Positions 6,257 through 61,480 of a stretch of 64,000 bases of DNA are shown piece by piece; the first letter of the stretch is position 1, and every line of letters begins with the position of its first letter. Made by a program: the position numbers and the translations under genes. The stretch is from Heligmosomoides polygyrus polygyrus (lineage: Eukaryota > Nematoda > Chromadorea > Rhabditida > Heligmosomidae): positions 44,565,139 to 44,629,138 of the forward strand of contig OX377204.1 of NCBI GenBank assembly GCA_947396885.1, read 5' to 3'. The notes beneath the pieces are model-generated. The model was not told the DNA's origin, did no database searches, and saw nothing but the letters and a program-made list of their open reading frames with translations.

Positions 6257-6261
6257 TATAG

Positions 6262-10062: not shown

Positions 10063-10183
10063 GACAAAGGTATACCCCACGGACGAGCGGAGCACGCAGA
10101 TCGACCAGATTTGTTTCGACTGCAATAATCAACGTATTCAGGGGTTCACAAAACCAGTGTAAAGATTCATGTTGGTGTAAAAC

Positions 10184-12569: not shown

Positions 12570-12628
12570 GATCCGTCGATAATAATATAATATATATAAT
12601 ATATAGAAATAATAAATAAATATATATC

Positions 12629-12767
12629 TTGCACAGCTTCCTAACAAGTTTGCGAAGAACTCTTATTTGGATTCAAATTTCAAGAATGTCGCATCAACAG
12701 TGGCAGTGACGATCTGGAGTTGGAGGTCGTTAGATAAGGCTCGAAATTCTGAGGTACAGCTGTGCCT
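12629..12767. repeat. Dispersed repeat R, inverted diverged copy
   Basis: The reverse complement of this stretch aligns with 10184-10330 (for example TCAGAATTTCGAGC and CACTGTTGATGC against CACCGTTGATGC), but far less closely than the outer arms match each other. Confidence 0.6.
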
Positions 12768-13554
12768 GTTTTACACCAACATGAATCTTTACACTGGTTT
12801 TGTGAACCCCTGAATACGTTGATTATTGCAGTCGAAACAAATCTGGTCGATCTGCGTGCTCCGCTCGTCCGTGGGGTATACCTTTGTCCTTTTCAAATAG
12901 TCGAATATTCGAATATTCGAATATTCGAATATTCGAAGAAAATCCAATATTCGAATTATTCGTTTATTCGAATATTCGAGAAAGTCCAATATTCGAGTGA
13001 TCGTTTATTCGAATATTCGAAGGCTTCGAATTTCGAATAATCGATTTCAAATATTCTTAATCAATCTCTTAACAAGCTGATGGCACTCCCCTTCGAAAAC
13101 CAGGAAATTGTGACCTTTTGATAAGAACGATGTTTTGTTTCCCGTGTCACTCAAAGTGGCCGAATTGTGTGTATGCAATCTGACAAGGGAACGGCCTGGA
13201 GCGTATGCCTGAAAGGGGAGAGCGAGTCATATAGGGAGAATCCCCACCCCTCAATAAGCGTGAAAATGGGTTTATTTTTGACAAGTCGTTAAACACAAGG
13301 AGTAGGGAGTCTGTTACAATAGAATTCGTAGGTATTTTACGCCCGGCAAGTGGCTCGGAGCGCAGTGGATAGAGACGTTGTTACATGGGTGGGAGATCGG
13401 GGGATCGATTTTCCTGCTCTGCCGCGTTTTTGCATTTCATATGTTTGGTTGAGAGTTGAACGATTCTGACATCTATATCATTTTCAGATGTTTTTGCCTA
13501 ACTTTCCAGTTGTACGCCGAGAAGAAATTTCTTGACACTCGTTTATTACTGAGC
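12768..13554. repeat. Right arm of a 786/787-bp inverted repeat
   Basis: Mirror image of 9398-10183, including the TTCGAA array (12897-13035) and the SINE-like unit with A-box-like GAGCGCAGTGG (about 13364) and B-box-like GGATCGATTTTCC (about 13402). Confidence 0.85.
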
Positions 13555-13579
13555 GGGTTTTTAACCACAAGGCAATGAG

Positions 13580-14415
13580 AAAGCTACTCAACGATGTATA
13601 AACGTTCAACCAGTGATGCACAGGCCCAAAGTGCATGAAACAGAAGCACTGGTCACAATCGGACAGCGTATAAAAGCTACAGGCTCCCCACAGTTATACC
13701 AGCGACACCACCTTCAGTGTCATTATAACAAATCCGTTCTCCTTCAGCTACCCGCAGCTTCGACATCTAATGTTGTCCCTTGTTGCAGGTCAAAAGCAAG
13801 ATCGAGCACAATGACGTGGGAGTGAAACCATTCCACTCGAAAACGTTATCATATGTCCACTGCTTACTTGCCTCTCCACGTCTATCAGTTCATCTTGCGG
13901 ATCTCAATCTTCTTCTTCCACCACATCCAGCTGTTCGTCTTCGTCAACTTCAAGTTGACGTGCTTCGAAGTCCTTGAGTATGCTGGCCATCCGTTCGGCC
14001 AGCTTGATTTCTTCCCTCGAAGGCTCCTTGACTAAAGGTGGGCCACATTTCAGCGTGGTGGGTTATCACTCGAGCATTGGCGGACATTGTTGGTGTTAGG
14101 TTTTAGGAAACCTCCAGCAGATCTCTGATTTCCAAGTGACAGGAAGACATGAGGGAAAGAGTGTATCGATACCGTTTAGCTTAATTTGCGGGATCCGCAC
14201 ACCTCGTTTCTCACTTGAACCACCTCACAACGTGGCCTCCTTTGAAAATCCGAGCAGGATGGTTTCTCCCGAGGTCATCGGTCCATCTAGGGAAACAAAC
14301 TGTGAGAAGCCTGTAGCCTTTATACGCCGTCCGTACTGTGACCAGTGCTTCTTCTTCATGCACGTTGTGCCTGTGTATCATTGATGTTGAACGTTTGTAC
14401 ATCTTTATGTTGAAT
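13580..14415. mobile_element. Small inverted-repeat element
   Basis: The reverse complement of about 13590-13700 (AGCCTGTAGCTTTTATACG, GACCAGTGCTTCTG, GTTGAACGTTTATACATC) matches 14300-14410 (AGCCTGTAGCCTTTATACG, GACCAGTGCTTCTT, GTTGAACGTTTGTACATC). This gives arms of roughly 110 bp around a 600-bp interior holding a short acidic open frame. Exact ends and target duplication are not clear. Confidence 0.5.
13904..14031 (-). CDS. Short acidic open frame, possible exon
   Basis: After an acceptor-like CACCTTTAG on the minus strand, a frame of about 42 codons reads KEPSREEIKLAERMAS, then LEVDEDEQLDVVEEED, and stops at 13904. The charge pattern and lack of low-complexity DNA look more like protein than chance. 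It sits inside the inverted-repeat element at 13580-14415, so it may be a transposon-encoded fragment. I do not recognise the family. It begins without ATG, so it would need an upstream exon. Confidence 0.3.
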
Positions 14416-14439
14416 ACCACAGCATGCAACTGGAAAAAT

Positions 14440-14800
14440 TAGTAGAAAACCTCTGAAATGGTATAGACGTCAGAATCCATCAAATCTCAACAATCAGTTG
14501 AAATGCACAAGTGCAGCAGCGGGAGACACCTGGTACCCTCGATCTCCCTCGCATGAAGCAACGTCTCTATCCACTGCGCTGCGACTCGCTTGCGGCAGAG
14601 GCATCGCTGGCACACAAGACCGCCGAAATCGTGAGGCACCGATTACACTGTAACTACAACAACCCCCTACTCCTTGGCTTTAGCGACTTGGCAAAAAATA
14701 AACACATTTTATACTAATTGAGGGGTGGGGTTCTCCTTATATGACTCGCTCTTCCCGTTCAGACCTACGCCTCAGACACTTCCCTTGTTAGTCGACGCGA
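14440..14800 (-). repeat. tRNA-like SINE-type unit (type A), diverged
   Basis: On the minus strand it starts with GGCGTAGGTCTGAACGGG (about 14775), reads GAGTCATATAAGGAGAACCCC, then the A-box-like GCAGCGCAGTGG (about 14580), then TGCATTTCAACTG, TTGAGATTTGA and CTGACGTCTATACC. The same order of blocks occurs at 9470-9800, so both are members of one family. Confidence 0.55.
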
Positions 14801-15367
14801 GGTAAGGGCGGGCAAACGCGGACCTCCGCAACGTCCCTGCTTTCTTCGAACGCCATCGAGCGTCCTGCGGCTAGTCACGTGAGTCGGTGAATAACAAGTG
14901 AATCAGGTTATGGCTGTTCAATGACGCTTTTGCCTTCGGTATACTACGGGAGGATCTCCGTTTTGTATTTCTACCCCAGGTACAACGACAGAACCATTAA
15001 AGCCGGAAGGAGCCTCGGTAGGGAGGTAGCACTTTCTGGAGCCTGGGAAGCTCCTGCTTTCTACCAGCAAAGACGTTAAACAAGAGAGGCAGAGCAATGG
15101 CTATGGAGTACAAGAGCCAGTGATACTCCGTTTCCTATGAAAGCGAGTCATCCACATTTTCGCAATAACCCTACGCAACTCATAGTGTCTTATCAGATTA
15201 GGTTACAACCATGGACTTCGGGTCCGTTTGCTTACAAGTGAAGCGAAGCTCTTCAACGGAGCCAGGACACAGGCTGAACCATTCGTGAGCCTCCAATGTG
15301 CCTTTTCCGCACCAGGTCGCTTTTGTGTTATTTCTTCGTCTGTGCTAGCCATCCTTTTACCATCTAG
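14801..15367. other. No recognised feature
   Basis: Short frames only. Nothing matches a repeat elsewhere in the window as far as I can see. Confidence 0.4.
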
Positions 15368-15712
15368 AAGCTTCGGTATAACCCAAAGAAAGACAGTAAC
15401 CTATGGAGCAAGATCTATAACAATCTAGCTCAGCCTATCCAAGGTGTTTCTCTCTTCTCGGGGCACGAATTCTTAGGGAAGCAAGGGTGTTTCATTATAG
15501 CTTTGTCACCGTCTTTTGATCTCGTGAAGGAAATGGATGGAGCAGCCTTCGCGGCGCTTGAACAACTGAGCCTGGGCACCGACTTCCACAGCCTCGGTTC
15601 GGTCCTCCGATCCTTTTCGCAATTAACCAACTGGTATAAGAGTAACGACAATCTGAAGCCTTCGTACATGAAGCTCTGTCGAACGCAGTTTACAGTGGGT
15701 AATAAAAAATAA
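15368..15712 (+). CDS. Unrecognised open frame, possible terminal exon
   Basis: A stop-free frame of 114 codons begins just after an acceptor-like CCATCTAG and ends with TAA at 15710. AATAAA motifs follow within a few bases. The predicted peptide is not low-complexity (it includes FSGHEFLGKQGC, LVKEMDGAAFAALEQ and LKPSYMKLCRTQFTV), with no motif I can name. There is no ATG at its start, so it would be a last exon. A long minus-strand frame covers the same bases, which weakens the case. It could also be the end of a decayed LINE. Confidence 0.3.
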   Translation, partial: KLRYNPKKDSNLWSKIYNNLAQPIQGVSLFSGHEFLGKQGCFIIALSPSFDLVKEMDGAAFAALEQLSLGTDFHSLGSVLRSFSQLTNWYKSNDNLKPSYMKLCRTQFTVGNKK

Positions 15713-15744
15713 ATAAATATCAATCATTGGGTGACCACAATAAG

Positions 15745-16020
15745 TGAGGTGTTCATTTGATTATTCGAATATTCGACTATTCGAAATTCGAAATTTTGAA
15801 AATCGAATATTATTCGATCATTCGAAATTCGAAATTTTTTCCAAGGACAAAGGTATACCGTCGGTCCGCTGCCGTGGGGCCGTCGCCTTTGCGCGGCCGG
15901 CGACGACGGCCTCCGCCGGGTCGTCTCCCGCCGCGCGCGCGACGGGTGTCACAGCGCCAGTGGAGAAGGCGAGCAGGGGATTCACGCCGCAGGTATGGCC
16001 ACCTGGACGCGCGGCCGCGG
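15745..16020. repeat. TTCGAA array joined to GC-rich repeat R (inverted)
   Basis: A TTCGAA-rich stretch (15765-15838) is followed by AAGGACAAAGGTATACC and then a GC-rich block. The reverse complement of that block (CCCGTCGCGCGCGCGGCGG and on) matches 4985-5095. This links the arrays and repeat R as one composite family. The overlapping 152-codon and 90-codon frames here are GC artefacts. Confidence 0.65.
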
Positions 16021-32835: not shown

Positions 32836-34284
32836 ATGGGATTTCCTCATCCGGCCATCCCTTCTGTGGCTTCTGCTCACGGTCCTGTTCGCAAGATCAC
32901 CGTGGAGGAAACAGAAGCGGCTCTGAAGAAGATGAAGCCCGGTAAGGCGACAGGGCCGGATGATCTGGCAGCCGATGCTTGGAAGTCGAAGCTCTGGTAT
33001 CCTGCTGAGTGGTTGACTGAGCTTGGAGAAGGCTTCAACCAGGTAGTAAAGGAGAAGAAAGTACCGGAGTGTTGGCACAACAGTATGACGATTCCGATCT
33101 GGAAGAAGAAGGGCAGTCCTGCGGACTGCTTCAATTACCGTCCGATTCGCTTGCTTTCGCATAGCATGAAGATCTTCGAGCGAATCCTCGATAGAAGAAT
33201 CCGTGAAATCGTCAAGCTCTCCGTCAACCAGTGCGGTTTTGTGTGTGGTTGTGGGACCATTGATGCTATACACGCCGCCCGCCTCCTGGTGGAGAAGCAG
33301 ACAGAAACCGGTGCATATCGCCTTTCTCGACTTGAAGAAGGCTTTCGATCGCGTACCGCGTGAGGTTATATGGTACGCCTTGCGACGACACAACGTACCT
33401 GAGGAACTTATAGAGTGGGTGCGGATGCTCTATTCTTGCCCAAAGAGTAGAGTGCAAGCTGCAGCTGGAACCTCAATGGAGTTTCCCATCTCTGTTGGGG
33501 TGTACCAGGGTTCTGCGCTTTCTCCACTCCTCTTTGTTGTCGTCATGGATTCCATTACACGAGATCTTCAGCAGCCTGATCCATGGACGCTGCGAAAGAC
33601 GATCTCGAGCGGCAGGTGCAAGATTGGTGCGACCGTCAGGCGAGGTTCGGACTCAAATTGAACGTCAAGAAGACCGAGTACCTAACGACTGACGTGAACG
33701 AGTCCGGCTCCATTAAGATTAACGGTACTGAACTTGCACGCACTTCGGTGTTTAAATACCTGGGATCAGCAATAGCGTCTGACGGCGGTCTGATGGTTGA
33801 AGTGAACTCACGCGTGAGTGCAGCTTGGTCCAAGTGGCGTTCGCTAACTGGCGTGCTCTGTGATAGGAAGATCCTAGGGCACCTGAAGTCGAAGATTTAC
33901 AGAGCCGTCTTGCGGCCAGTAGCGATGTACGGCGCTTAGTGTTGGCCTGCGACTAAGGAAGTTGAAACGCGCCTCAGCGTCATGGAGACGAAGATGCTGC
34001 GCAGTACGGCTGGAGTCACCCGCATGGACCGCATCAAAAATGATGCTATTCGGCAGAAGTTCGGTGTCGCGCCGATAGCGGACAAGATGCGCGAAGCTCG
34101 CTTGCGATGGTACGGCCACGTTCTGCGTGGGAAAGAAGATAGCGTCCGCAAGACAGGCCTTGAGTTGGAAGTATCTGGAAAGCGGCCTAGAGGACGCCCG
34201 AAGCAGCGTTGGTCCGATACGTCACACAAGGACATGAAAGTAGCTGGAGTCCATCCTGATCAAGCGCAGGATCGGGAAAGGTAG
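32836..34284 (+). pseudogene. Lineage B reverse transcriptase, catalytic box deleted
   Basis: RT blocks are readable across three frames: MKPGKATGPDDLAADAWK, IWKKKGSPADCFNYRPIRLL, then HIAFLDLKKAFDRVP (catalytic block A), YQGSALSPLLFVVVMD (block B), and directly AAKDDLERQVQDW. The YADD-type block C expected between PWTL and KDDLERQ is missing, with the joint at about 33592. The thumb and C-terminal region follow (LKLNVKKTEYLTTDV, FKYLGSAIASDGGL, RWYGHVLRGKED). Block C holds two of the three catalytic aspartates, so this copy cannot polymerise. Confidence 0.85.
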
Positions 34285-34332
34285 CGTCGTAACACCAGAA
34301 GAGCGAACCCTGCGACGATGCGGGACAAACGT

Positions 34333-34348
34333 TGAAGAAGAAGAAGAA

Positions 34349-34395
<47 letters not shown>

Positions 34396-34478
34396 AGAAG
34401 AAGAAGAAGAAGAAGAAGAAGAAGAGGAAGGAGAAGAAGAAGAAGAAGAAGAAGAAGAAGAAGAAGAAGGAAGAAGAA

Positions 34479-34525
<47 letters not shown>

Positions 34526-34560
34526 AGAAGAAGAAGAAGATAATGAAGGAGAAGAAGAAG

Positions 34561-34591
<31 letters not shown>

Positions 34592-34592
34592 T
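34333..34592. repeat. GAA trinucleotide tract at the LINE 3' end
   Basis: About 260 bases of GAA/AAG with occasional AGG, GGAAGG and TAATGA interruptions begin directly after GACAAACGTT of the LINE tail. The poly-lysine, poly-glutamate and poly-serine/phenylalanine frames over it are artefacts. The tract probably grew from the LINE's own 3' repeat. Confidence 0.95.
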
Positions 34593-35142
34593 CTGACCCT
34601 GAGGCTCGGGGCTTTATCAGAACTCACGTGTCGTATTCTCTATCAGATAAAAGGATGGTATAGCCTTGTGGGCTGGATGACCAAACGACTTTTTGAGCTC
34701 ATAAAGGGCCAACTTCTTGTTTTGGCCTAAACCTGATGAAAACTAGATGTAGCGCGTTCAAAGAGTAGGACCAACTCTATACAGCATGGGCCCCTGGAGC
34801 CAATGGAGACATGCCTTACGATGGTAAGAAATGAAATGCTTACGGACTACTTGCAATCAAGTTTCCTCCTGCATATGAAGGATGATACCAAGCTTGATGC
34901 CTACTCTTCATGAGTAAGGGTCCGCAAGAAGCTGCTGCTGAAATAGCAACGTTCAGTCTAGAATTAAAGCTAGTCATAGGGCCAAGTACAGAGGACATTT
35001 ATTTGTACACCTTGTTTGGGAGCGACTGAAAAGTTTGTACGCAGTTCGGACCTTGAGATTTCCACGATGAATGAAACACAAAATAGAAGAGAAAATTAAA
35101 ATAGAAGAGAGTATAAAAATTTTTGAACCACATTTTTCCTAG
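34593..35142. other. No recognised feature
   Basis: No motif-bearing frame. The sequence directly before 35143 is pyrimidine-rich and ends TTTTTCCTAG, discussed with the next entry. Confidence 0.35.
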
Positions 35143-36001: not shown

Positions 36002-36201
36002 NNNNNNNNNNNNNNNNNNNNNNNNNNNNNNNNNNNNNNNNNNNNNNNNNNNNNNNNNNNNNNNNNNNNNNNNNNNNNNNNNNNNNNNNNNNNNNNNNNN
36101 NNNNNNNNNNNNNNNNNNNNNNNNNNNNNNNNNNNNNNNNNNNNNNNNNNNNNNNNNNNNNNNNNNNNNNNNNNNNNNNNNNNNNNNNNNNNNNNNNNNN
36201 N
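36002..36201. other. Assembly gap, 200 N
   Basis: Exactly 200 unknown bases. Frames crossing it have no meaning. True distance and orientation across this point are unknown. Confidence 0.99.
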
Positions 36202-42550: not shown

Positions 42551-42941
42551 GCCGAAGGAGTGCTCCACAAGGAGGACGAAAGCACTGATTAACGCAAATA
42601 AATTACGTTTCTGAACTGTCTGAAGATAATGCCGACGTTGAAGAGATGTTGAGGATGGAAGGAGGGAGAGCTGGACGGCTTCATATCGAAGAACTACTAA
42701 CCTGATCTTAAAGACGGTAGACCAAGGTTCGAAATTATTAAGGTTTTCAAATATCTCTTTTTACTGCTAAGGTGCCGAGAAGGCTGCACAAGCAGAGCAG
42801 CTGCTTGAAGTGAGTGATCTTGGCATAGTGACTCTCTAAGGTCGCGCGAAGCGCGCAAGTGCAAAACACGCCGACAGGCGTGTCGGAGCACTTGTAGATG
42901 TTTCGAATAACTTAACAGCATATAAAATGTCATTTCGAAGA

Positions 42942-45318
42942 TCACCTCTATCACCTGTCGTCCCGTTGATCATCGACTTGCTCGAAAGGGCGCCAACAGC
43001 GTCTCCATTCGTCCCTCTCGCGTGCCAGAGTGCTCCAATGAATTCTCCTCGCTCGAGAGACACGAAGAGCGTCATATCGGCCGTTCAGGGCTTTCATGAA
43101 GAAGTCCGACCAACGCGTTGGTGGGCGTCCTTGTGTTCTCTTGACATCCCGCGAAATCCAGTCGGTAACGGCTCTCGTTCATCGGGTGTCTGCGAAGCGA
43201 ATTACGTGGCCGGCACACCTAATTTTCGACAACCTGGCCCACGCGACAGCGTCTCCCATCTTCGAACTTCGGCAAAGCTCGGAACTCCGGAGGCTCTCAC
43301 TTGTGTGAGTCGTGTCACTCCGAGCATCCTCGTCCTCTCGATTCCACGCTGCGCGACGCTGATTGCGTGTTCATCCTGCTTTCGTATGGCCCAGGTCTCT
43401 GAGGCGTAGGTTAGGGCAGGAAGAACAGTGGAGTCGGATAGGCGGTTCAGCTCCGGCGTCAGGTCGTTGGCCACATTGACTCCACGACCCAGATACACGT
43501 AGCTGGAACATTCGGAGATGTTCGTTCCGTTGAGCGAGAATGGGGCATCACAGACTTGTCCGTTCCTTATGAACATCGTCTTCGTAAGATTCAGCTGCAG
43601 TCCAAGGTTCCCACATACACAATCGAAGTCGGCCAAGTCGGCCAGCATTCGCTCCGTCTGGCTGATCCTCGGTGTCATGAGCACGATGCCGTCAGCGAAG
43701 CGCAGATGGTGCAGTTGCCGGCCGTCGACTTTCACTCCCATGTCCTCCCATTCTAGTTCGCGCATGACGTTTTCGAGGATGGCGCTGAAGAGCTTCGGGG
43801 ATCCCCCTGCGGAACCCCTCTCTTCACGTCAATGACGACCTCGTTGTAGAATGGTGAGATCTTGGTCGTGAATCCCTGTACAGTTCTCGAAGGACTCTGA
43901 TGTACTGAGTAGGAACACCCTGAGTGAGCAGGGCGTCGATGACCGCTTCAGTCTCGACGGAGTCAAATGCCTTCTTCAGGTCGATGAACGTAAGGCACAG
44001 CGGCAGCTTGTACTCTCCGACACTTCGATGAGCCTCGTAATGGAGTGTAGGTGGTCGATCGTGCTGAATCCTCCCCGAAATCCTGCTTGTTCGCATGGAT
44101 ATCCTTCGTCCAGCGTTCTGCTTATCCTATTCAGGATCACACGTGTGGACAGCTTGTAGACTACGGACAGCAGGCAGATCGGGCGATAGTTGCCAATGTC
44201 GTGTACATCTCCCTTCTTGTACAGCAAGACGGTCTTGCTGGTCTTCCACTGAGATGGAACCTTGTACTCCGACAGGTAGCGTGTGAAGAGCCGCGCCAAG
44301 GTGTTGATGAGCGTTGGCGAGAGTTTCGTCAGGTGTTCAGGTCTGATCCTGTCGGGACCGGATGCTGTACGTTTCTTCACCGACGAGATGGCGTGTCGGA
44401 TTTCGGAAGGGAGAACAGAGGGAACGACGTATCCATCCTGCGGAAGAAAGCATAGGGGCAGGTGGACGTGGCTATCGAAGAGATCGGAGTCGTTCATGAT
44501 CTTCTCTATTGCTCTTCTGGAACAGAAAACTTTTCCGTCAGGACGTGGGAGAGCGGCCATTTTGGCCATGAAGTTGGTGAAGTTCCGGCGAGCGTTGCGC
44601 ATGCTCAAAGCTGCCACTGCAGCTTCAGCCAACACTTCCGCCTTTCTCTGCTTAAGATCCTCCTTTATCGCCTCTCTGCATAGCTTGCAAGCTCGACCGT
44701 CCGTCGGTAGTTGCCTGACGCTCGTGCTGCTCCACGCTGGCGTATAAGCTCGAGAGATTCCGGAGACAGGCTTCTCTTTGTGGTCTTCATGCTCTCGGCT
44801 CCCTTAGCACTATCGTGGAGATGGTGCACAAAGTGGTCGTATTCCTCGTCGATGTTGTCCATAACGGCATCTTCTCAAAGGCCGGCAAGAGAGGTGTAGA
44901 TGACCCAGTTGATGGTCGTTCTGGGTTTCCTCTTTCTGACGTGAAAAGGGCCTTCTCTCCCTAACGCGAAAAGCGGAACCTCACGCGAAGGAGGCGGTGT
45001 CCTATCCGTGTAGAACTTGGGGACAACGGAAACGTCGGTCAGGCAATACTTGCGATTGAAGATGTTGTGGTCGATCTCATTGTGGAACTGGCCACTGGGG
45101 GATTCCCAGGTCCATCGTAGAGAGGGAGGCTTTTGGCACTATGAGTTTCCATGGATGGTCTTGGTCGACTTGATAAACTCAGACAGCCGTTCACCTTGCT
45201 CGTTCCACTCCAAACCGTTCGCGATTTGGAGTGGAAGGAGGCCCGATCTTGACGTTGAAGTCGCCGACCATCACCTTGTAGAAGGTGGTGTCTTCCTTGA
45301 AGAACTTCTCCAGCTCCA
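42942..45318 (-). mobile_element. RTE-clade retrotransposon, 5'-truncated (RTE copy 2)
   Basis: Same family as the copy at 10437-12580: the minus strand holds half an endonuclease (45318-44870, heavily decayed), RT, and the C-terminal domain, ending at GGTGATAGAGGTGATC (about 42942), the short repeat 3' end typical of RTE elements. The 5' break falls in the endonuclease just before GDFN, next to inverted repeat D. No target duplication is clear. A single-base frame change near 43240 and several others remove coding capacity. Confidence 0.8.
43202..44635 (-). pseudogene. RTE reverse transcriptase with altered catalytic box
   Basis: The frame 44635-43976 reads RRNFTNFMAKMAALPRPDG, SSVKKRTASGPDRIRPEHL, NYRPICLLSVVYK and AGFRGGFSTIDHLH. 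The overlapping pieces give TFIDLKKAFDSVETE (block A) and then LRFADGIVLMTP (43765-43202 frame). The catalytic box is normally FADD; here the second aspartate codon is GGC, glycine, at 43688-43690. The thumb follows (LGLQLNLTKTMFIRNG, NISECSSYVYLGR). Together with frame changes this marks a non-functional copy. Confidence 0.8.
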
Positions 45319-45660: not shown

Positions 45661-46500
45661 GCGCTATTCTTAAAGGCACTATGTTTGGGACCATTGTTAC
45701 TGTTTCTGATGCGGCTCTCACCGCTATTGCCGTCCCTGCATAAGGTTTTAAGCATGATTCAACTGAAATCAGGAGTTCTATCCACAAAGATAAGCTGCAG
45801 AACCTGACAAAATAAGTCACGCACCTTCAATAAAATCCATTATTCTTGGAGCTTGCACCTAACATCACACACTGTAACACAGTGTCTTCAGCATGGAGAG
45901 TCAAGTGAGGAAAAGCACATGCGGCTCATAGGGACATAGTACACTACAGGATCTCTCGTGAGTACTGCAATGAAATTTCGAGACCTTGACAGTTGACATT
46001 GCTTTAAACTATATGTATAATAACCGCTATGTAACGCAGCCTTAGTATTGTAGTTCCTAGGAGCTATCAAATTTCTAAAAATTGGTGATTGAAACCCCGT
46101 ATCATGACAGCATGTAAAGCTCTTCACAGCTTTCCGAAAATGCGAGTACTCGGCTGTGCTACGGTTGAGCAACACTTCCACTTTACCGATTATCCGCTAC
46201 ATAGTAACGAGGTAAAGCAGGTCAGTGATATGCTATTCAGTGATATGCCTAACGTACCCTTATGCTGTCTAACTTGTGACAAATCGCATGGATCGTTCCT
46301 CAAGAAGGCAGATAAGATGGGGACTCAGCTCCGAGCAAAACATGCCTGCAAGAAAAACAAAATAGCGCTCATGAGTCGCTTGCACGATCTGAATAGCTAG
46401 CCACCGCTTTATTTGAAGAGCCTTTTCTCACAGTTTAATCTCTTTAGAATATTAGACGAAACAGTATATCAGAACCTACTATACTTGTGCTTTTTTAAAA
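45661..46500. other. No gene recognised
   Basis: A plus-strand frame at 46089-46400 (103 codons, with LCCLTCDKSHGSFLKKADK) is protein-like and cysteine-bearing, but it has no family match I can name and no clear splice context. Confidence 0.3.
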
Positions 46501-46502
46501 TT

Positions 46503-46612
46503 TTTCGAATGAACGAATAATCGAATAACCCCATTTTTCGAAAATTCGAATGAGCGAATAATCGAACAACCCCATTTTTGGTTATTCGAATTTCCGAATA
46601 ATCGAATAAACT
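46503..46612. repeat. Short TTCGAA-type array beside the Tc1-like element
   Basis: Two units of GAATAATCGAATAACCCCAT-like sequence with TTCGAA variants. It ends 16 bases from the transposon's left end. Confidence 0.7.
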
Positions 46613-46998
46613 TTATTAAAACTTAATACACCCGGTGCAAAATAGGTTCACCCCTGGCTTGTCCATTGGTACCCGAAGAACCGCGCTGCCGAGGTTCAGT
46701 AATGCTACCATCGTATTCCTCACGATGGAAAACTTCTATAGAATTCTAAGCAGTTTATCTTATCAGTGCAGAATACCACGAACTTTAACTGAAAATTAAA
46801 GAAATGGAGACCGGTGCAAAATATAAGTTCGCTTCATATAAAATCTGATTAATCACAAAAGTACCTACAAACAAGGTAAGATTAGTACTTCGTCACATCA
46901 CCTTTGTTGCAACCATATCGAAAATTCTATTTTGCACGCTACTGATTAGGTTATCAATAACAGTTCGCTCAAAATTGGCCCATGCAGTATGGCATTCT

Positions 46999-47406
46999 TC
47001 AGATCAGAAACCGATGTCTCAGCGGTTCCATTTTTGTACACTGTGTATAAAAATGTCCCACAAGCTTTCTAGTTTTCGGGTTGAGATCTGAAGAACAGCT
47101 AGGCCGCTTCAAATGTTGAGTTCTGTTGGAGTTGAGCCAACCTGTAGTTGACCGCGATACGTGTATGGATGCATTATCTTGTTGGAAAATAAGGTTGTGC
47201 CTACGAAATCTTCTGAAATATGGCAGAAGGTAATCTCCGAGCAATTTCTGGTAGTCTTCGCTGATCATCCTACGCGAGTCGAACTGCAAGGCAACAAGTT
47301 CGTATACAGAAAACGCAGCCGAAACCATGAGACTTCCACCGACAAAGTAGCACCTGTAGAATATTCGCTTCTCTCTCTCCTCAAATCTCTCGAATAGTGT
47401 CTGCAC
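46999..47406 (-). pseudogene. Tc1-like transposase C-terminal part
   Basis: The frame includes GGSLMVSAAFS, YQKLLGDYLLPYF, then IFQQDNASIHVS, the second catalytic aspartate of the DDE triad, and RPSCSSDLNPKTRKLVGHF, the region around the third acidic residue. Tc1 family members read SPDLNPIENLWG here, so the catalytic glutamate position is changed. The N-terminal DNA-binding domain is absent. An inverted partial copy runs at 47575-47695 (MNSEDYQKLLRDYLLSYF and QQDNASIHAS) and resumes at 48120-48290. Confidence 0.75.
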
Positions 47407-47699
47407 CCGTCGGGCCCATCAAGATTCCACTTCTTTTACACTACTGGAGAGATCTGAGAGAAGAGGTCGAGTATCCCCTAGGTGCAACTTTGACGGTGAA
47501 AGTATCATGGATGGGCTGCGTTTTCTGGATGCGGACTTGTCTCGTTCGTTTCGGAAGTTCGTCTCGTGTTGGATGAACAGTGAAGACTACCAGAAATTGC
47601 TCCGAGATTACCTTTTGTCATACTTCAGAAGATTTCGTAGGCACAATCTCATTTTCCAACAAGATAATGCATCCATACACGCATCGTAGTCAACTGCAG

Positions 47700-48112
47700 G
47701 TTTGTTTTTTTACTTACTTATTTATTTATTCAATACGCTCGCGATAAGCGCAAGCGCCAGAAAAAAGTATTACAACAACACAACAACATGAAGACACACC
47801 TAGAGCGAGCCAAACCAATGTCCTATGAGGAGAAAGGGCCACCTTCAGCTTACTCCTAGGTCGACTGATAGGAAGCTTCTCAGGCTCCTCTTCTGTTTGA
47901 GACGCACGCAGATCAAAGAATTTGGAGCCTACAAAGCGCGAAAAGTGGATTAACTTATAAACCCGACAAATATCAAAGAATTTCCTGCGGAAGCCAATGT
48001 GTGAAGACCCAGGTATTTGTTCCTTATCGCTGCTTTAGGTACATAGAGTAAAGGAACCCGCCAATGCGAATAAGAACCTTGTAGTTAGTTATTCTGTACC
48101 TTTTCCACAAGG
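47700..48112 (-). mobile_element. LINE 3' fragment inserted in the Tc1-like element
   Basis: The transposase copy in plus orientation breaks at AACTGCAGG and resumes at GAGAGGTTGGCTCAAC, so 47700-48112 is an insertion. Read on the minus strand it has C-terminal LINE-like blocks (IGGFLYSMYLK, LGLHTLASAGNS) and ends in an AAATAAATAAGTAAG tail (47708-47740), like the LINE tail at 20820. Target duplication is unclear, possibly AGGTTT. Confidence 0.6.
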
Positions 48113-48637
48113 TTTATGAGAGGTTGGCTCAACTTCAATACAATTCAACTTTTGCAGTGGTCTAGTTTTCCTCCAGATCTCACCGCTGATAGAGAACTTG
48201 TGGGGCATTCTTGTACACAAAGTGTACAAAAATGGAACCGCTGAGACATCGGTTTCTGATCTGAAGAACGCCATACTTCATGCATGAGCCAATGTTGAGG
48301 GAACTGTTATTGATAACTTAATTAGTAGTACGAAAAACAGAATTTTCGATATGGTTGCAACAAAGGTGATGAAGTACTAATCTTACTCTGTCTGTAGGGA
48401 CTTTTGTGATTAATCAGGTTTTTTATGAAGGGAACTTATATTTTGCACCGGTCTCCATTCGTTAAATTTTCAATAAAAGTTCGTGGTATCCTGCACTGAT
48501 GAGATAACCTGCTTAAAATTCTTCTATAGAGGCTTTCGATAGTGAGGAATACGACGGTAACCGCTGAGCATAGGCAGCGGACCCTTCGGGTACTAATGGA
48601 CAAATCGGGGGTATCTATAATTTTGCACCGGGATGTA

Positions 48638-49029
48638 GTAATAAGGACGATGCGATTTTTGTGTTGGCCAATTTCGTTTGATACCGTTTACTCACTCCAA
48701 AAGCGCATTGTGTAGGTTCAAGTAAATGTAGTAAAGTAAATTCAACGACAACATTGGCCAGAGACAAAATAAAAAATTTGAGTTCTTTAAAAAAAGCAAA
48801 TAATGAAGATATTCAATATCTTCTCAGAACCGTTGACAATACTCGTTAAATGGCAAGACATGAGAACTTTTTTTCTGCAAACAGAATCCTACAAAAAAAT
48901 TCCTACAGAAATACGGTGCAAAACATCTACGCACAAGTGCAAACCTTCTCGAAAAAAACCGTTCACTCCATTTGTTCATTTCATCATCTCACAGGAATTG
49001 TCAGTTAATCAAATTATAGAGTTATACGG
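48638..49029. other. No recognised feature
   Basis: AT-rich sequence. The 86-codon frame (48803-49063) carries no motif I recognise. Confidence 0.35.
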
Positions 49030-49143
49030 CATTTTCAGTCGAAATTCAACGTTTTTGAAATAAATTTCAACGTTCTTCTGGAATTTTCCCCGTGTAACAA
49101 CGTTGAATTTGATTTGAAAAACTTCGAATTTCAACTGAAAATG
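49030..49143. repeat. 114-bp hairpin element
   Basis: CATTTTCAGTCGAAATTCAA at the left pairs with TTGAATTTCAACTGAAAATG-type sequence at the right over roughly 45-50 bases per arm, with AACGTT near the centre on both sides. It is probably a very short MITE. Confidence 0.7.
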
Positions 49144-49169
49144 GTATATAGTCGTGTCATATATGCAAA

Positions 49170-49735
49170 CTGTGAGCTTCAGCCCCGAAGTAATCAAGGT
49201 CGCTAAACACGAATCTTAAGTTAGTTTTTGCAGTAACGGTTGCCATCAAGAGATATTAATCAAATTATCGATTTTTCGTAAATATCACTCAACAAGATCG
49301 AAACTTCAGGCCTGAGGTAATCGAGGTCAATGAACACGAATCTGAATTCACTTTTTAATTTTCCGTCGAAATTTGTGTTTGTTGTGCAAATTCCCTAGAG
49401 TATTCAAGTGTATGACATCGATGACAGTCGTGGTCGCAGAGAACGCAAATGTGAAGTTAGATTTTGAAAATATCGACGAAGACCGGTCATACCATTGATT
49501 CGCCTCAACGAATTCCCCATAGAAAATCAAAAGCTCGATCAACTTCTACCGATAATTTCAAAAACGAACTTCAAATTTGTGTTCAGCGAGATCGACTACC
49601 CCAACGGCTGAAGCTTCGGACCGCAGACGATCGCCATCAACTGCGGTCAGTATCGCCAATACGCCATTTCCCCACGATAATTGTGATGGACTGATGGAAA
49701 CACGCACGCACACACACACTACCCTTCTATGTATA
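49170..49735. repeat. Diverged members of the 41-kb tandem family
   Basis: GCTTCAGCCCCGAAGTAATC, AAGGTCGCTAAACACGAATC and AAATTATCGATTTTTCG at 49177-49275 repeat at 49305-49370, as in 40964-41420. The stretch ends with GATGGACTGATGGAAACACG, an ACGCAC run, and CTATGTATAGTAAG. That last piece mirrors the ACTATATA of the island's starts and might be the 3' end of the same element type. Confidence 0.5.
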
Positions 49736-49847
49736 GTAAGATATTGAATGCGTTTTCGTTAGGTGAGCTCCTCGACAGTGTGTTATCGAAAACAATCGTC
49801 AACGAAATGAACGCTGCTCACAAAAATCATCATCATGCCACATTCGA

Positions 49848-50095
49848 AGCAAACACGTATTCGAAATTCGAATATTATTCGAATTTTCGCACCTCGAATA
49901 ATCGAATTCGAATAATTATTCGAATTTTCAAACCTTGAATAATCGAATTCGAATAATTATTCAAAATTGCAAACCTCGAGTAATCGAATTCGAATAATTA
50001 TTCGAATTTACGAAACTCTAATAATCAAATAATCGAAAATCGAATTCGAATAAATTATTCGAATAATTATTCGAATTCGATTATTCGAGCACAAG
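49848..50095. repeat. TTCGAA tandem array, period about 45-50 bp
   Basis: Four units of CGAATAATCGAATTCGAATA plus ATTATTCGAATTT and spacer, then a final palindromic stretch. This is the most regular of the TTCGAA arrays here. Confidence 0.8.
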
Positions 50096-50999
50096 TATAG
50101 AACCTACTTTTAGGAAACCCGGTGGTGGCTCACGATATTGACTGCCTATAGTACTCCATCGTCCGAAACAGTTTCTTGAACAGCTGCCTCCATGTAGAGT
50201 TTTCATTGAGAAAGGGAGAAAGTTTATTTTAGCAGTTTTTCTTTTTATTGAGTGTAGAACGCACAGCAACAGTATGAAATCCGTTAGAACAATCTAATCG
50301 GTCAATCAGAATAGGTATAGATAGCAGAACTGCTGATGACGGGTTGCACCCAAAGAGACGGAAAGAATTTGTAGCCCAAGGTCGTAGCGCAATCGTACGC
50401 TGGCGCTTTCCTCTCCCTCATCGATGCACATGCATTGATCTTCTAATAGAGGCGAATGAGCAAAATAAATGTTCTGACGCCATCTAGGAATGCTATCGTA
50501 ATACCACATTACAAGGTTCTTGAATACGATGGTGTAAGTGTTCTGCCTAAGCGTACCTATTGGTATCCTCACTACCTCTAACAGTTGCAAGAAATATGGT
50601 TACCCTGTACAATAACATACATGCGTAGCAATGCAGTGTGGAAGAAATAGCAAAGTTGAAGATATTGCAATAGATTACAAACGATTGTATACAATGGTTG
50701 TATAATAGACAATACACAAAACTTGGTAAAGTGCACAAGAACTGAAGTGTTACGACTTTAGCAATACAAAAGCCTTTAGTAAGCATGATAAAAATCGAAA
50801 GACTTTTACATTATTACTACACCAGCCGTCAGAACGGCCTCTCGGCCGCACTAGTGGCTTCTCAACGGCTTCGCCGCGGTAATAACTTCACTTCATCAAT
50901 TAGCTGCCACCCGTGTCATGGTTTCCTTAGGAAAACATCTTAGCTACGTCGATTGGGGCAAGATAGAAAAAAGAACGGAAAAATGAACGACATCCACAG
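50096..50999. other. No gene recognised
   Basis: Minus-strand frames at 50306-50590 and 50547-50786 are protein-like (for example NTYTIVFKNLVMWYYDSIPRW) but unassigned. Around 50815-50880 lies a short GC-rich hairpin (GGCCTCTCGGCC). Confidence 0.3.
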
Positions 51000-54779: not shown

Positions 54780-55814
54780 CTCGAAAATAGCTCGCGTGAC
54801 GCTATTTGAAGCCATATCATTATTATTTATTTTATGAAGAATTTCATGTGTCACAACAATATCACTCCTAAGAGAAAGAAATGCAGAAAACAAACAAACA
54901 ACAGAAACATCATAAGATAAAGAGTTTAGAAAAAATAAAAACAAAAGAAACACGGGGAAGCAAATATAGGCCAAATTTTTCTATTTGAGATCGTGACCAC
55001 ATGCATCGAGGTGTGTTGACCATGCATCTTAAAATATTTAGAGAAATCGGTAAAACCCGGTTTTTGGAAATTTTTATATAAGCTGCAGTAGCTCCATTCA
55101 CGAAGAACTGAATCCTACATGCAAGCTTGGCTCTGGGTATGAACATTTTTATTGTGGCACCACGAGTTGAAGATGGTCTGAGATTAAGGAAACCCTCCGC
55201 GGCAAATGCGCAAGCATCACTTATTATTTTGTGAACCATTAGAAGATCAAGCATTTCCCTGCAATCGGTCAGCGTCTGCAACCCTAGCTGGATGTTTCTT
55301 GAATTCCGGGACGGAAATTCGAGATAAGAGAACCCTAACTTCCTAATGAATACTTTCTGGTGAAACTGTTTTAGAAGTTCTCCAAGCTTTCAACAATTTT
55401 AATTTTACGAGGATTGAAAACGACTGTGATATTCCAGAAGGAGTATGTCTTGTTAGCTCGAAGAAGCATTGCAGGGTCATCCGTAGCAAGGGCTCAAAAC
55501 AGGTGATGCACCAGTGAGAGCGCTTTAATTGCTAGGTGTTCAAAGTGAGCATCAAAACTTAAATTCTGAGTTATAAGAAAGCCTAGATCCTTCACTTCTG
55601 TGATAGGTGCTCCTTCAAAATAGTAGGTCATTGAACTTTTTTCTCCTAGCAATGCTAATGTTTAACAGAGATGTCTTTTTTTTCGAGAGAGAGGTAAATC
55701 CCATTCATTTGTCCAATCGTATGGCTAGGGTCGTCAGCAGCGCTCTGGAGCACATACTAGCATCAAGGCTTTGATAGAGTTTAGGGTCGTCAGCAAACGC
55801 AACCCATTTGACAC
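54780..55814 (-). mobile_element. LINE C, 3' half (RT palm to C-terminus)
   Basis: The minus strand starts at the right edge with VKWVAFADDPKLYQSLDAS (FADD catalytic box at about 55790), then ITEVKDLGFLITQNLSFD, FIRKLGFS, LDLLMVHKIISDACAF and SSTRGATIK, ending in a short A/T tail near 54825. This is the second half of the RT whose first half is at 60822-61480. The element E insertion separates them. Stops and frame changes are present. Confidence 0.75.
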
Positions 55815-55849
55815 TATAGTTGTGCTCTCCCAAAAATTTGGAATAACCG

Positions 55850-56002
55850 AATATATTCGAAAAGCGACGATTCTCGAGCATTCGAATTCGAATAACATTC
55901 GAAAATCGCGTTTTTTCGAGCAATCGAACTCGAATACGTTCGAAAATAGCTTTTTTCGAGCATTCTAATCAAAGTATTCGAATTCGAATGTTCGAATAAT
56001 CA
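55850..56002. repeat. TTCGAA array at the left end of element E
   Basis: Units such as GAGCATTCGAATTCGAATAA separated by CGAAAATCGCGTTTTTT, mirrored at the other end of the element. Confidence 0.8.
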
Positions 56003-56014
56003 TTCTGGCTCAAC

Positions 56015-58040
56015 CAGGGTTTTGGGAGAGAGGATCATTTCATCAAGGCAAATACGGGGTATACACTGTTTAAAAGGTGATAACGTTGCTCAAGGTAAGG
56101 GTACTGAAGAAGTTAAGGTCTCATATGAAAGTTAACAAAATAAAAATTTTCTGACATACAAGCGGTGTGGACTGCGCAATACACTCATCTGAATTCTCAT
56201 CATTTTACATTCGATTGATTGTGTTTCACTTGAATCACCTGTATCACCTGTCGTCCCGTTGATCATCGACTTGCTCGAGCGGGCGCCAGCAGCGTCTCCA
56301 TTCGTCCCTGTCGCGTGCCAGAGTGGTCCAATGGATCCTCCTCGCTCGAGGGACACGAAGAGCATCATATCGGTCGTTCAGGGCTTTCACGAAGAAGTTC
56401 GACCAACGCGTTGGTGGGCGTCCTGGTGTTCTCTTGACATCCCGCGGAATCCAGTCTGTGATGGCTCTCGTCCAGCGGGTGTCTACGAATCGCATTACGC
56501 GGCCGGCCCACCTAATTTTCGACAACTTGGCCCACGCGACAGCGTCTCTGATCTTCGAACGTCGGCGAAGCTCGGAACTCCGGAGGCCTTCTCTCACTTG
56601 CGTGAGTCGTGTCACTCCGTGCATCGTCCTCTCGATTCCACGCTGCGCGACGCTGATCGCGTGTTCATCCTGCTTTTATAGCCCAGGTCTCTGAGGCGTA
56701 TGTTAGGGCAGGAAGAACAGTGGAGTCGAATAGGTGGGCACGGAGTCGGACGTTCTTCGTCTTCTTCGCGACTTCTTCGACGCTCTTGAAAGCTTCCTAA
56801 GCCGCTCGTTTCGTCCTGCTCAGCTCTGGTGCTAGGTCGTTGGCCATGTTGACTTCGCGACCCAGATACACATAGCTGGAGCATTCGGAGATGTTCGTTC
56901 CGTTGAGCGAGAATGGGGCATCAGAAACCCATCCGTTCTTCATGAACATCGTCTTCGTAAGATTCAGCTGCAGTCCGACGCTTCCGCATACACGATCGAA
57001 GTCGGCCAGCATTCGTTCCGCCTGCCCGATGCTCGGTGTTATGAGCATAACACCGAGCATCACTTGAATACCTGTTGTAATTTCTCCTTAAAGAAACCGT
57101 GTCATTTAATTTGGGCTTCTTTCAATGTTTAAAACTTTAAAACACACTATGGCTTGCGAAAAATGCAGAGTACCCTAAAAATGCAAGTACTAAATGAAAG
57201 GTTCCAACATTGCTTCTAGTAAAGCTTTTGGAGCTGTTTGAGACTCATACTAAAGCACATTGTAACAAGGTTTCTGTGGCGTGGAAATAGTCATATTGTT
57301 CCATACCCTGCCAGAAACCTTGCATTCCAGACTTGATTGACTGTGTATGGGTCAACTGCTCTTTAGAGTAGTCGCTAAATCGCCTCTGCACTCCGACGAT
57401 GTTTTCGATTTTCCAGAAGCACTTCAGGATAAACTTTTTCTCCTCGAAAGAAACCCTAGGGCCGGCATGACTCTTGTTATGGGACCAGACGTGTAGAAAG
57501 CGTTATTAGAGCAATAGCGAGAACGGAAAATTTTGGAATCAATAAAACAATCAACAGCTTGTTTTGGATTTTGTCGGATCTTGATCTCCTCATTTTTTGC
57601 TGATGGAATAAGTCGACAGGTGACCCGTTGGAAACAAAAGTGTGGTGATTCGAACGGTGCTTATTTCGACTAAATCCGATAAGATTTGAGAAAGTCATGG
57701 TAGCTCAAAGTGAAGCACTCAACACGCTGAGAACTTTCCCTACAACCTAACAGTTCCATTTTTCGCAAGCCGTGGTGTGTTTTTAAATTTTGAACTTTAA
57801 AGAAGCACAAATTAATCAACGCGGCCCCTTTAAAGAGAAATTACAATTATTTAAGTGAAACACAATCAATCAAGTCCAAATTTAAGAAATTAGACGAGTG
57901 CTTGGCGCAATCCACACCACTCATATGTGAAAAATTTATATTTTTAAAGCATTCATTCTTGTCCTTAATCTCTTGAGAACCTTCACTGTGAGCGAGGTTA
58001 TCACCTTTCAAACAGCGTACACATTTTTTCAGAAACCCTG
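56015..58040. mobile_element. Transposon with roughly 300-bp inverted ends, nested in element E
   Basis: The left end CAGGGTTTTGGGAGAG and the right end (reverse complement) CAGGGTTTCTGAAAAAATG continue as inverted repeats through AAAGGTGATAAC, GGTGTGGA and GATTGATTGTGTTTCACTT to GGCTTGCGAAAAATG (57165 and 57755). RTE copy 3 interrupts the left arm. The interior (57170-57750) reads weak transposase-like blocks on the minus strand (FEEKKFILKCFWK, IKIRQNPKQA) in an unexpected order, so the coding part is decayed or rearranged. A TA follows the right end; the left flank does not show one. Confidence 0.65.
56236..57059 (-). mobile_element. RTE-clade fragment (RTE copy 3) with 10-bp target duplication
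   Basis: The minus strand begins just after the catalytic box (MLITPSIGQAERML), continues [40 protein letters not shown] and the C-terminal [20 protein letters not shown] and [17 protein letters not shown], and ends with GGTGATACAGGTG. TCACTTGAAT flanks it at 56226-56235 and 57060-57069. It is a classic 5'-truncated insertion. The C-terminal frame (56244-56624) is uninterrupted; the part before it has frame changes. The same family occurs at 10437 and 42942. Confidence 0.85.
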
Positions 58041-58689
58041 TATATTGACGACAAGTGCCCCTCCCAATCTGTACGTGGGCTTCGCACTTGTTCGCCTAGC
58101 TTGATGTCCGTCGCTAATACATGTATAAGATAAACATATTACACTGGGATAAATTAATCGCTAATATGTGGGTAAGATCACATACACTAATTGTATTGTG
58201 CAATCCATGAAGTTCTTTTTGGTTTGGGTTCGTTCGAACCCGTTGTAAAGATTACAAATTTCAAAGTTTGGGCAAATAGACTTCTCCATGCGATCGTCAC
58301 ATCATCAGATCTTTTCCATAAATGGCAGCTTCCTCATCTCCCCTCCTCTTGCTTTCCTCTCATTTATACTGTAAATTAACAGTCCGGTGAGCAATCTTAT
58401 ACGAAACATTGAGGGAATAACACACCTCGCCTTTCGCTACCCTAACCCTTATTTAAAATTAACGGCCGTTAAGACCTGCCATAACCCTTACCGCTTATAA
58501 TCCCAGATGTGTTTTATTAGGTTAGTTTCCACATAGTGAGCGATAAAAGAAAACTACCCGCAGCGTATTCTAAGCTTCCTTTGAAAGCGGATCTGTTTTA
58601 GAAATGAAAAAGGTGTCAAAAGCACAACTCCATTTCAGTTTTCACCTTCAACTCGTCTTTCGGAAGTGATAATGCATCAAAACCAACTA

Positions 58690-59070
58690 ACCAGGGAAGG
58701 GTCTCAGGCGTAGGTCTGAGCGGGGGGAATGGATAGTACTGCGAGAATCTCCACCCTTCGTTTAGTAGAAAAACATGTTTCCTTTTTGCTGAGTTCTTGA
58801 ATCAAAGGAGCTACGGACCCTGGTGGGGTACAGTAACGCACCGTCAGCGCGTGCCCACGTGCATACGTGCGCGCGTCGACGTATGGGAAATGGCAAAAAG
58901 AGGTGCGGCGAGCGAATCGGTGGCTCAGCAGAGTGTGACGCTGCCTCACAGGTGCTAGGCCAGATGATCGATTTCCGTGCTATGCACTTTTTTGACATTT
59001 TTTCATGTCTGCTGCTTCCTTCAACAATTTGCTTCCTACACATCTTCTACACATTTATTTCACCCTAAAT
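58690..59070 (+). repeat. tRNA-like SINE-type unit (type B) in element E
   Basis: GGGTCTCAGGCGTAGGTCTG (58697), then A box TGGCTCAGCAG (58921-58931), B-box-like TGATCGATTTCC (58965-58976), and a CTACACATTTATTTCACC tail. This is the clearest copy of the unit. Confidence 0.65.
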
Positions 59071-60275
59071 TGTCAAAAGGGTCAGATTTGTGTTCAACAC
59101 CCCAGATAAGCCCTATAGACAAAGTTTGGACGAAAACGGTGACCATGACCTCAGGAACTGAACGAAACATGTTTTTCTACTGCATGAAGTTTGGAAACTC
59201 TTGCAGTACTATCCAATTTCCCCGTTCAGACCTACGCCCGAGATCCTTCCTTGGTAAGTAAAAATTCATCAAAACCGGTAAAAGTCGACCCTTCGAAGCT
59301 TGTTTTGGGGCGGATCCAAACGATCCCGCTTCTGTACATAAGCGAATCGGCGTCGGGATCTGGTCTCCTGTTTACGAATGCCTTTGTCGCAGAATGTCCC
59401 AATTTGAATTCGTAAAGCATGATGACTCGATAGCCGCGTCGGTTCATGATTTTACGGGGCTATGGAGAAAACCGGCTAGAAAAATTAGAGCGAAAGTTAC
59501 AAATATTTTTTGAAAGAGCAGGAGAAAAACCTACCGAACATTTGTGACTTTCCCTGAGATGGGATGCTTTGGGGTAAAAAACTTATTTATCTATACCTAC
59601 CTCGAAACCAAGATTAATTTTGCGACAGCCTAACATTATTCTCCCTCGCCAAAAAAACAGCTTTATAAAATTTCAACCAATATGTCAACGTGTTGAGTAG
59701 TGAAATGAAATTTCAAAAAGTTATGCCAAATTTCCTTGAACCAAAATTATTTATTTATTTATATAAGGCATGCATTGTAAACCCAATGATACATTATACA
59801 ATGCTTATACAATGCATACATATATCAGGAACGAAATAAAATTTAGAAAAACGCCGACAAGATCAAGGCGGATCGAAGGTGACACTTCTCCAGATGAAGG
59901 TTTTGAATGCACCTTTCGACAAACTAAGAAGGTCGTCTTGGCCAGTAACGAACTATTCTAACTAGTCACAAATTATTATTTTATTTAATCAATATTCTAA
60001 CCGTTTTGGAGAGCCTCTAGTTTATGCGAAAAAAACTCGTTTTGATTTGGAAGATGTTCAGTTGATTCCAATAGAGTTACACTTGTTGAGAAGAGTGTCC
60101 AATTTGTCGTGAAATATGTCCATTTTGATTTGAAAAGTGTCCAGTTTAACATTGGTTTTCACATTCTGAGCGATAAAAGAAAATCGCCCGCGGCGATAAA
60201 AGAAAACCACTCCTGGAGAAGTGCCGCCGATGTTGATAACGTGCCTGCGGAACCAGAAGACGTTTGGGCAGGTTG

Positions 60276-60410
60276 TGGGGCACAGTGGCGTTGATTCATG
60301 CGATGAGGTCTCTTGCGTTGCGAGATTTTTGCATTTTAACGGAGTGGTTGAGATTTGAGGTGTTTGACGTCTACATTATTCGCTGGCGTTTTCTGTGCAT
60401 TTTCCAGCTG
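60276..60410 (+). repeat. tRNA-like SINE-type unit (type A) in element E
   Basis: The A-box-like GGGGCACAGTGG is followed by TTTTTGCATTTTAACGG, GTGGTTGAGATTTGAGG and GACGTCTACATTATTCG, matching 13355-13500 in order and partly in sequence. The B box is decayed. Confidence 0.55.
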
Positions 60411-60661
60411 TATGCGCTTCCGCGCTCGAGAGCGCAGAACCCAGCTGCGGACTCCTCTGGGCGACCAAAGCAGTTCCCACACGAACAGTTTGGATGGCAT
60501 ACACCATGGAGTGCCTTCCTTAGCCTGGTTCTGCGCTCGAAGAACATCGGCCCCTGAGTCCCCGATGAGGGCGCGCACTTTTCTGATTGGAGCGTAAATT
60601 ATTTGCTTCTGGGATGCTTGAAGCAGGAAAGATAGATTATTTTGTTAGATCGCAGATTTTG

Positions 60662-60815
60662 TAGCAATCGAACGTTCGAATTCGAATACATTCGAAAATC
60701 GCGTTTTTTTTTCGAGCATTCGAATTCGACTAGATTCGAAAATTGCGTTTTTTCGAGCATTCGAATTCGAATAATTCTATTCGAATTCGAATGCTCGAAC
60801 ATTCATTTGGACGCA
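60662..60815. repeat. TTCGAA array at the right end of element E
   Basis: Mirrors 55850-56002 and corresponds to 6262-6475 of the left copy. Confidence 0.8.
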
Positions 60816-60821
60816 ACTATA

Positions 60822-61480
60822 TTTGACACCAGTTTCTTCCACAAGCCTGGAAAGCTCGTGCGTGTATATAATGAATAAAACCGGGGAAAGAACTCCACCT
60901 TGTAGGACGCCGCTTGTAACTGGTTTAGTTCCGTTTTGTTTACTTTAACTCTACTCGATCTTCCGGAAAGAAATTCCTTTATCCATTCGTGGATGAATTC
61001 CCAATTGCTGCAAGTTTCAGTGTAAGCTTCCTGTGACATACCCTATCAAACGCGCTGGAAAAGTCTAAATAAACCACATCTGTACCTACACCCTATCCAA
61101 TCATTTAGAGCCTGAAGCATGGCAGTGACTGCTGACCGTCCTTTCATGGAAACCGTTCTGGTGCGGGGAAATAATCGAAAACTCATTTAAATGCCTTATA
61201 ATTTGTCTTTCAGAATTTTTTCAAAAAGCCTCGCAAATAATGAGGTGGTACTGATAAGTCTATAATTGAACGGAGAGTCAAGAGGTGGCTTTTTAGGAAT
61301 AGGAGTAATAAGAGAGATCTTTAATATTTCCGAAACTTTTGATATCAAGTGGGTTCTGTGTGACACTCAACTAGGTAATACATATGAAGCGCCCTGTACC
61401 AAATCCTTCATTTCTGCAGTTTGGCAAGTTTTTGCGCCTTCAATGTAATTTTCCATGCATCGCCACTCGGAACAGCCTAA
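60822..61480 (-). mobile_element. LINE C, 5' half (RT fingers to palm)
   Basis: The minus strand reads ISLITPIPKKPPLDSPFNYR, LFARLFEKIL, PHQNGFHERT, VVYLDFSSAFDRVCHRKL (block A) and SGVLQGGVLSPVLFIIYT (block B), ending at ETGVK where element E begins. The next expected residues, ending in FADD, resume at 55814. Frame changes are needed throughout. Confidence 0.75.

Follow-up and report, generated by a model that had tools for sequence, protein, structure and literature searches.

The 64,000-nucleotide stretch of Heligmosomoides polygyrus polygyrus DNA analysed here (referred to below as the window) contains a 5007-base-pair (bp) element, E, located on the plus strand at 55815-60821 and delimited by its tips, its target duplication and the reading frame of its empty site. 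On balance, our reading, held with modest confidence, is that E is a complete cut-and-paste DNA transposon of non-autonomous type, and that it forms, with two further elements (F and G), three families of one class that have their ends in common and not their interiors. The whole analysis concerns this one 64 kilobase (kb) window, in which families E, F and G are each represented by one complete copy.

E is a genuine insertion with exact boundaries. It is bordered by two perfect 8-bp copies of TTTGACAC on the plus strand, at 55807-55814 and 60822-60829. The left tip, TATAGTTGTGCTC (55815-55827, plus strand), has an imperfect 13-bp inverted partner at the right end, TATAGTTGCGTCC (60809-60821, minus strand), with which it agrees at 10 of 13 positions. 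The sequence TATAGTTG occurs three times in the 64 kb: at 55815 on the plus strand and at 60814-60821 on the minus strand, that is, at both ends of E, and again at 6257, where it is the tip of a second copy of the right part of E. A sequence-only reading of this DNA had proposed this terminal sequence, the 8-bp duplication and the second copy, and all were located. The second copy (6257-9397, minus strand; right tip TATAGTTGCGCCC, flank CCTTGCAC) was confirmed by self-comparison to be inverted and to lack the left end; the part of E in common with it is 58172-60821 (plus strand; BLAST, 93.0% over 988 aligned bases and 88.4% over 1653). The flank beyond its tip differs from that of E, so the right part of E is present at two sites and ends in the same sharp tip at each.

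The insertion site of E lies in the reverse-transcriptase part of a decayed minus-strand long interspersed nuclear element (LINE). When the flanks were joined with one copy of TTTGACAC, a 74-residue open stretch was obtained, running from SGVLQGGVLSPVLFIIYTHEL through GGVLSPVLFI and across the junction to WVAFADD, which carries the FADD motif; with zero or two copies the reading frame was lost. The Pfam family RVT_1 matched residues 3-48 of a 71-residue query from the joined site, spanning the junction, with an E-value of 7.9e-8. Searched singly, the first flank piece gave 1.8e-4 and the second gave no match. Stops on both sides of the 74-residue stretch indicate that the host LINE copy is old.

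F is a plus-strand element of 3620 bp (46480-50099) with tips TATACTTGTGCTT and TATACTTGTGCTC, a nested palindrome at approximately 46597-48660, and plus-strand copies of GAACCTAC, 8 bp long and identical at 8 of 8 positions, at 46472-46479 and 50100-50107. Translation of its joined flanks was uninformative. G is a plus-strand element of 2981 bp (12877-15857) with identical 13-bp tips, TATACCTTTGTCC, and is flanked by the 8-mers CCGTGGGG and CCGTCGGT, which are identical at 6 of 8 positions. A related LINE sequence that lacks G was found on the plus strand at 5013-5340, aligning with the right flank over 67 bp at 80.6% and with the left flank over 255 bp at 78.8%, and it has the 8-bp site once, as CCCGACTG at 5087-5094. 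In this orientation the flanks of G read ACCGACGG and CCCCACGG. Because all three are one base away from CCCGACGG, the simplest reading is that G has a decayed 8-bp target duplication that would originally have been CCCGACGG. Inverted tips accompanied by a target duplication are thus seen in all three elements (tips 10/13, 12/13 and 13/13 and duplications 8/8, 8/8 and 6/8 for E, F and G, respectively), and empty sites of the kind expected for a DNA transposon with terminal inverted repeats are available for E, from the restored frame, and for G, from the related LINE. F and G, each with two ends and an 8-bp duplication, represent additional families and not copies of E. In self-comparison of the window there was no interior match of more than 80 bases between F and either E or G, and one match of 39 bases between E and G. 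The left end of G and its flank (12622-13555) also occur as an inverted duplicate on the minus strand at 9397-10329 (95.3% over 934 bp; tip at 10074), so that 9397-13555 forms an inverted duplication of this end and its LINE flank, with LINE sequence separating the arms.

The window was scanned for pairs of tips beginning with TATA, with at least 8 of 13 inverted matches, an 8-bp duplication with at most 2 mismatches and a spacing of 80-8000 bp; it should be noted that the TATA condition was chosen only after E and F had been seen. Ten pairs were found, the top three being G (13/13, 2 mismatches), F (12/13, 0) and E (10/13, 0). Twenty dinucleotide shuffles yielded no pair with at least 10/13 and at most 1 mismatch. 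They did yield one pair at 11/13 with 2 mismatches, and the scan therefore supports the pair of G less than those of E and F. With the TATA condition dropped (a start of TA or CA, 10/13 or better, no more than 1 mismatch), nine pairs were found, including E and F; the best of the others, a CA pair at 46914-48353 (13/13), falls within the arms of the palindrome nested in F. Allowing up to 2 mismatches, the tip pattern common to the elements was observed 40 times against 40.3 expected, neither rarer nor commoner than chance, so that the tip by itself is not diagnostic.

Just inside the tips of all three elements are arrays of the palindrome TTCGAA. In E these lie on the plus strand at 55856-56014 (left; best period 42, where the first TCGA falls at bp 43 counted from the tip) and 60668-60808 (right; best period 44). 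The arrays at both ends of F have a period of 41, and those of G have best periods of 42 and 41 in the range 25-60 bp. A density scan for TTCGA or TCGAA, in which a cluster was defined as at least 8 per 200 bp, found eight clusters in the window; all eight adjoin one of eight tips and none lies elsewhere, a figure that describes the window and is not an independent test, as the clusters had helped in finding F and G. When periods of 25-60 bp were considered (25-55 bp in the case of the shortest array), the best in the seven non-duplicated arrays were 42, 44, 41, 41, 41, 42 and 41. In 1000 shuffles of each array the best period fell within 40-44 in 12.4-16.6% of cases, and the observed strength was reached by 0-4 per 1000. 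A TCGA box is found at bp 24-26 from the tip in seven of the eight ends, one of the seven being a duplicate; the right end of F has additional boxes at bp 12 and 20. When arrays were compared across families, their similarity was matched by 0 of 200 shuffles in five of six tests and by 2 of 200 in the sixth. This likeness beyond shuffles suggests that common descent of the E, F and G arrays is likelier than convergence. The common period and first-box position strengthen the case for the arrays as candidate transposase binding sites. Single-strand folding of three arrays gave z scores of -7.6, -3.4 and -6.8, which are expected of any array of palindromes and are uninformative.

The arrays in E had been described as mirrored. 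Arrays are indeed present at both ends, but they are direct copies, 82% identical over 141-152 bases on the same strand, with an alignment score of 178 in the same orientation versus 100 in the opposite one. The apparent mirroring arises because palindromic boxes read alike both ways. Counts per strand of asymmetric unit markers agree with a single direction in E (2:0 and 2:0 at the left, 2:1 and 2:0 at the right) and, from few counts, in F (3:0 left, 1:0 right). By alignment, same versus opposite orientation was undecided for F (77:75) and leaned the same way as E for G (93:77).

Pfam was used to look for a transposase in 57 of the 95 stop-to-stop stretches listed for the cores of the three elements, taken outside the inserts nested in E and F. 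Within the stretches scanned none of the elements has a transposase gene of its own, as is expected of a non-autonomous element. E had been proposed to be a non-autonomous DNA transposon, and this result, together with the tips, the perfect duplication and the frame restored with one copy only, supports this reading. Scraps below the cut-offs were HTH_48 (1.2e-4), Tc5_C (0.007) and three weaker matches (0.03-0.08). The first of these is a 20-residue match to the Mos1-type helix-turn-helix within E (59235-59459, minus strand). As the stretches scanned yielded such weak scraps only, we rejected the idea that any of the three elements holds the coding relic of a transposase; likewise, a stretch of F that looked Tc1-like by eye (46999-47406) gave nothing in Pfam at 1e-3.

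Patterns built from the unit and the tips had no matches in viral contigs and none in genome contigs, collections that are ill-suited to nematode elements and silent on novelty; the right end was likewise unmatched in a phage collection, also ill-suited to such elements. A looser pattern found three matches in bacterial assemblies, with 1-3 TTCGAA per whole stretch and no array, which we attribute to chance. No published description of these ends was recognised in a literature search largely without subscription papers. Curated repeat libraries for Heligmosomoides have been deposited in Zenodo (PMC10682056).

We propose that one or a few related transposases encoded elsewhere would act in trans, reading the 13-bp tips and docking on the TTCGAA boxes that start about 25 bp inside the tip and repeat every 41-44 bp. 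The enzyme would then pair the ends, cut, and insert with an 8-bp stagger. Four turns of B-DNA correspond to 41-42 bp; recurrence at 41-44 bp, or about four turns, would thus place the bound subunits on one face of the DNA. With arrays that both point the same way, the two ends of E would differ in function.

The mover is most likely, as a best guess, an enzyme of the hAT superfamily. This step is drawn from the 8-bp duplications and the subterminal repeats. The hAT element Hermes is reported to generate 8-bp duplications, with a target preference of nTnnnnAn, and to have BED-bound subterminal repeats close to the tip, which are antisense at one of its ends but sense at the opposite one (PMC10368747); equivalence of the latter to a single direction depends on the authors' way of counting. 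Our elements resemble hAT elements (Hermes, Ac/Ds, Tol2) and their non-autonomous derivatives in the 8-bp duplications, the short imperfect tips and the subterminal repeats near the tip. They differ in having TTCGAA palindrome arrays with a period of 41-44 bp, tips that begin with TATA, three of four sites that miss nTnnnnAn, and no transposase found in the stretches scanned. CACTA/En-Spm elements also have clustered subterminal repeats at both ends, but they have 3-bp duplications and CACTA tips, versus 8 bp and TATA here. In Foldback/Galileo elements tandem sub-repeats make up the inverted repeats. The likeness to these lies in the tandem sub-repeats at the ends and in large internal inverted repeats; in contrast, the arrays of E run in one direction and the inverted part is limited to the 13-bp tips.

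A number of observations weigh against a single class moved by a hAT enzyme. No transposase domain that would prove the superfamily was found in the scanned stretches, and each family has a single complete copy in the window. The hAT tip consensus has a purine at the third base, whereas this base is T in 8/8 tips, which is unusual for hAT by that consensus. The nTnnnnAn motif, a preference and not a rule, fits the site of E and does not fit that of F, the flank of the second copy or the site inferred for G. Neither the target sites nor the third base of the tips supports hAT. The left end of E, where the array begins at bp 43, is the exception to the box at bp 24-26, and when periods of 8-79 bp are allowed, 8 bp wins in the left array of G and ties with 41 in the right. 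Under the Repbase rule, elements belong to one superfamily if their duplications are equal in length and their first 11 bases have at most one mismatch (PMC4455052). The left tip of E has one mismatch to either F tip in these bases, which places E and F together under the rule; the right tip of E has three. Over the same 11 bases, the tips of G have 3 mismatches to those of F and 4 to those of E, and so fall outside it.

Several of these features could also be explained if the class is real and its mover belongs to another superfamily with 8-bp duplications (P, Merlin, KDZ/Zisupton or MULE-like) or to an undescribed lineage, which we regard as a serious but lesser possibility. The TATA start, the T at the third base and the three sites that miss nTnnnnAn all favour this. 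Merlin tips begin with GG and P tips with CA, which speaks against those two. Duplication length alone is indecisive, as P elements likewise use 8-bp sites (PMC3878927), while near-tip subterminal repeats are described for hAT (PMC10368747). An unlikely version of the one-class reading is that of a nematode class with an undescribed transposase lineage, in whose families the chief feature retained would be a docking platform in helical phase (TTCGAA palindromes from about 25 bp inside the tip, every four turns, in one direction at both ends in E and F) while the tips drifted and the interiors were replaced.

Slightly less probable still is that E is a composite, in which a short left-end element (about 200 bp) and the right part of a longer one were moved together via their outermost tips. 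The left array and its inner edge (55874-56014) match the right end as a direct copy, at 82%, as far as GCAAC, four bases before the tip, and the second copy has only 58172-60821 in common with E. However, the inner edge reads CAACCAGG and not CAACTATA, and no second duplication was seen there. The limit of the second copy, moreover, is accounted for by the inverted-duplication junction: it ends at 9397, the edge of the 934-bp inverted duplication, and its missing left end is best read as lost in this rearrangement and not as a property of the element. We consider it improbable that the arrays are ordinary minisatellites with no role in movement. TTCGAA runs are of low complexity, and G has 8-bp sub-periods, which speaks for such an origin, but the dense clusters adjoin element tips in 8/8 cases with none elsewhere in the window, and the period and start position are common to the three families.

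If the one-class reading of E, F and G holds genome-wide, three families alike mainly in their end arrays would make it possible to ask whether a transposase depends on the tip, the box or the spacing. Nematode repeat libraries commonly contain non-autonomous families whose mover is not known. A shared phased array would then be a handle with which to sort 'Unknown' repeats and find the enzyme, and the need for subterminal sites to share one face of the DNA could be tested on naturally occurring elements.

The interior of E contains later arrivals, namely a palindromic insert beside the left array (56022-58067, from arm alignment; boundaries approximate) and, inside it, a 5'-truncated LINE fragment (56227-57075, minus strand; 91% and 84% to 42941-43683). 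The fragment has its own duplication, CACTTGAAT(C)ACCTGT, of 16 nucleotides at 56227-56242 and 15 at 57061-57075. Exactly at its truncated 5' edge is a perfect 16-nucleotide hairpin (57028-57061) that resembles a snap-back during insertion. Arm alignment identified a second palindrome in E at approximately 58653-59288; large nested palindromes are present in E, F and G (13079-14857 in the last), with arms matching at about 75-85%. At window positions 7802-8851, the second copy contains a unit twice, in inverted orientation and with about 79% likeness; E keeps most of one of the two. The tRNA-like units that had been suggested for the body of E received no support: ARAGORN, run with the bacterial code, found no tRNA genes in the window, and Rfam had no matches there at gathering scores.

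Elsewhere in the window there are coding remains of LINE and mariner type. A LINE open reading frame at 10669-12075 matched strongylid nematode proteins, with 522 proteins at E-values up to 0.001 among 7979 scored candidates. Among the 120 matches listed, the closest by identity was a protein of Heligmosomoides polygyrus (97% identity across 67% of the query), and others were from Ancylostoma, Necator and Haemonchus, together with records from a shrew (Sorex). LINEs can pass between species, so these matches by themselves would be a lead to a strongylid host, perhaps Heligmosomoides, and would not identify it. A long low-complexity run with purine/pyrimidine bias, which translates as Lys/Glu or Ser/Phe, is located at 34187-34730, and 200 N at 36002-36201 mark an assembly gap.

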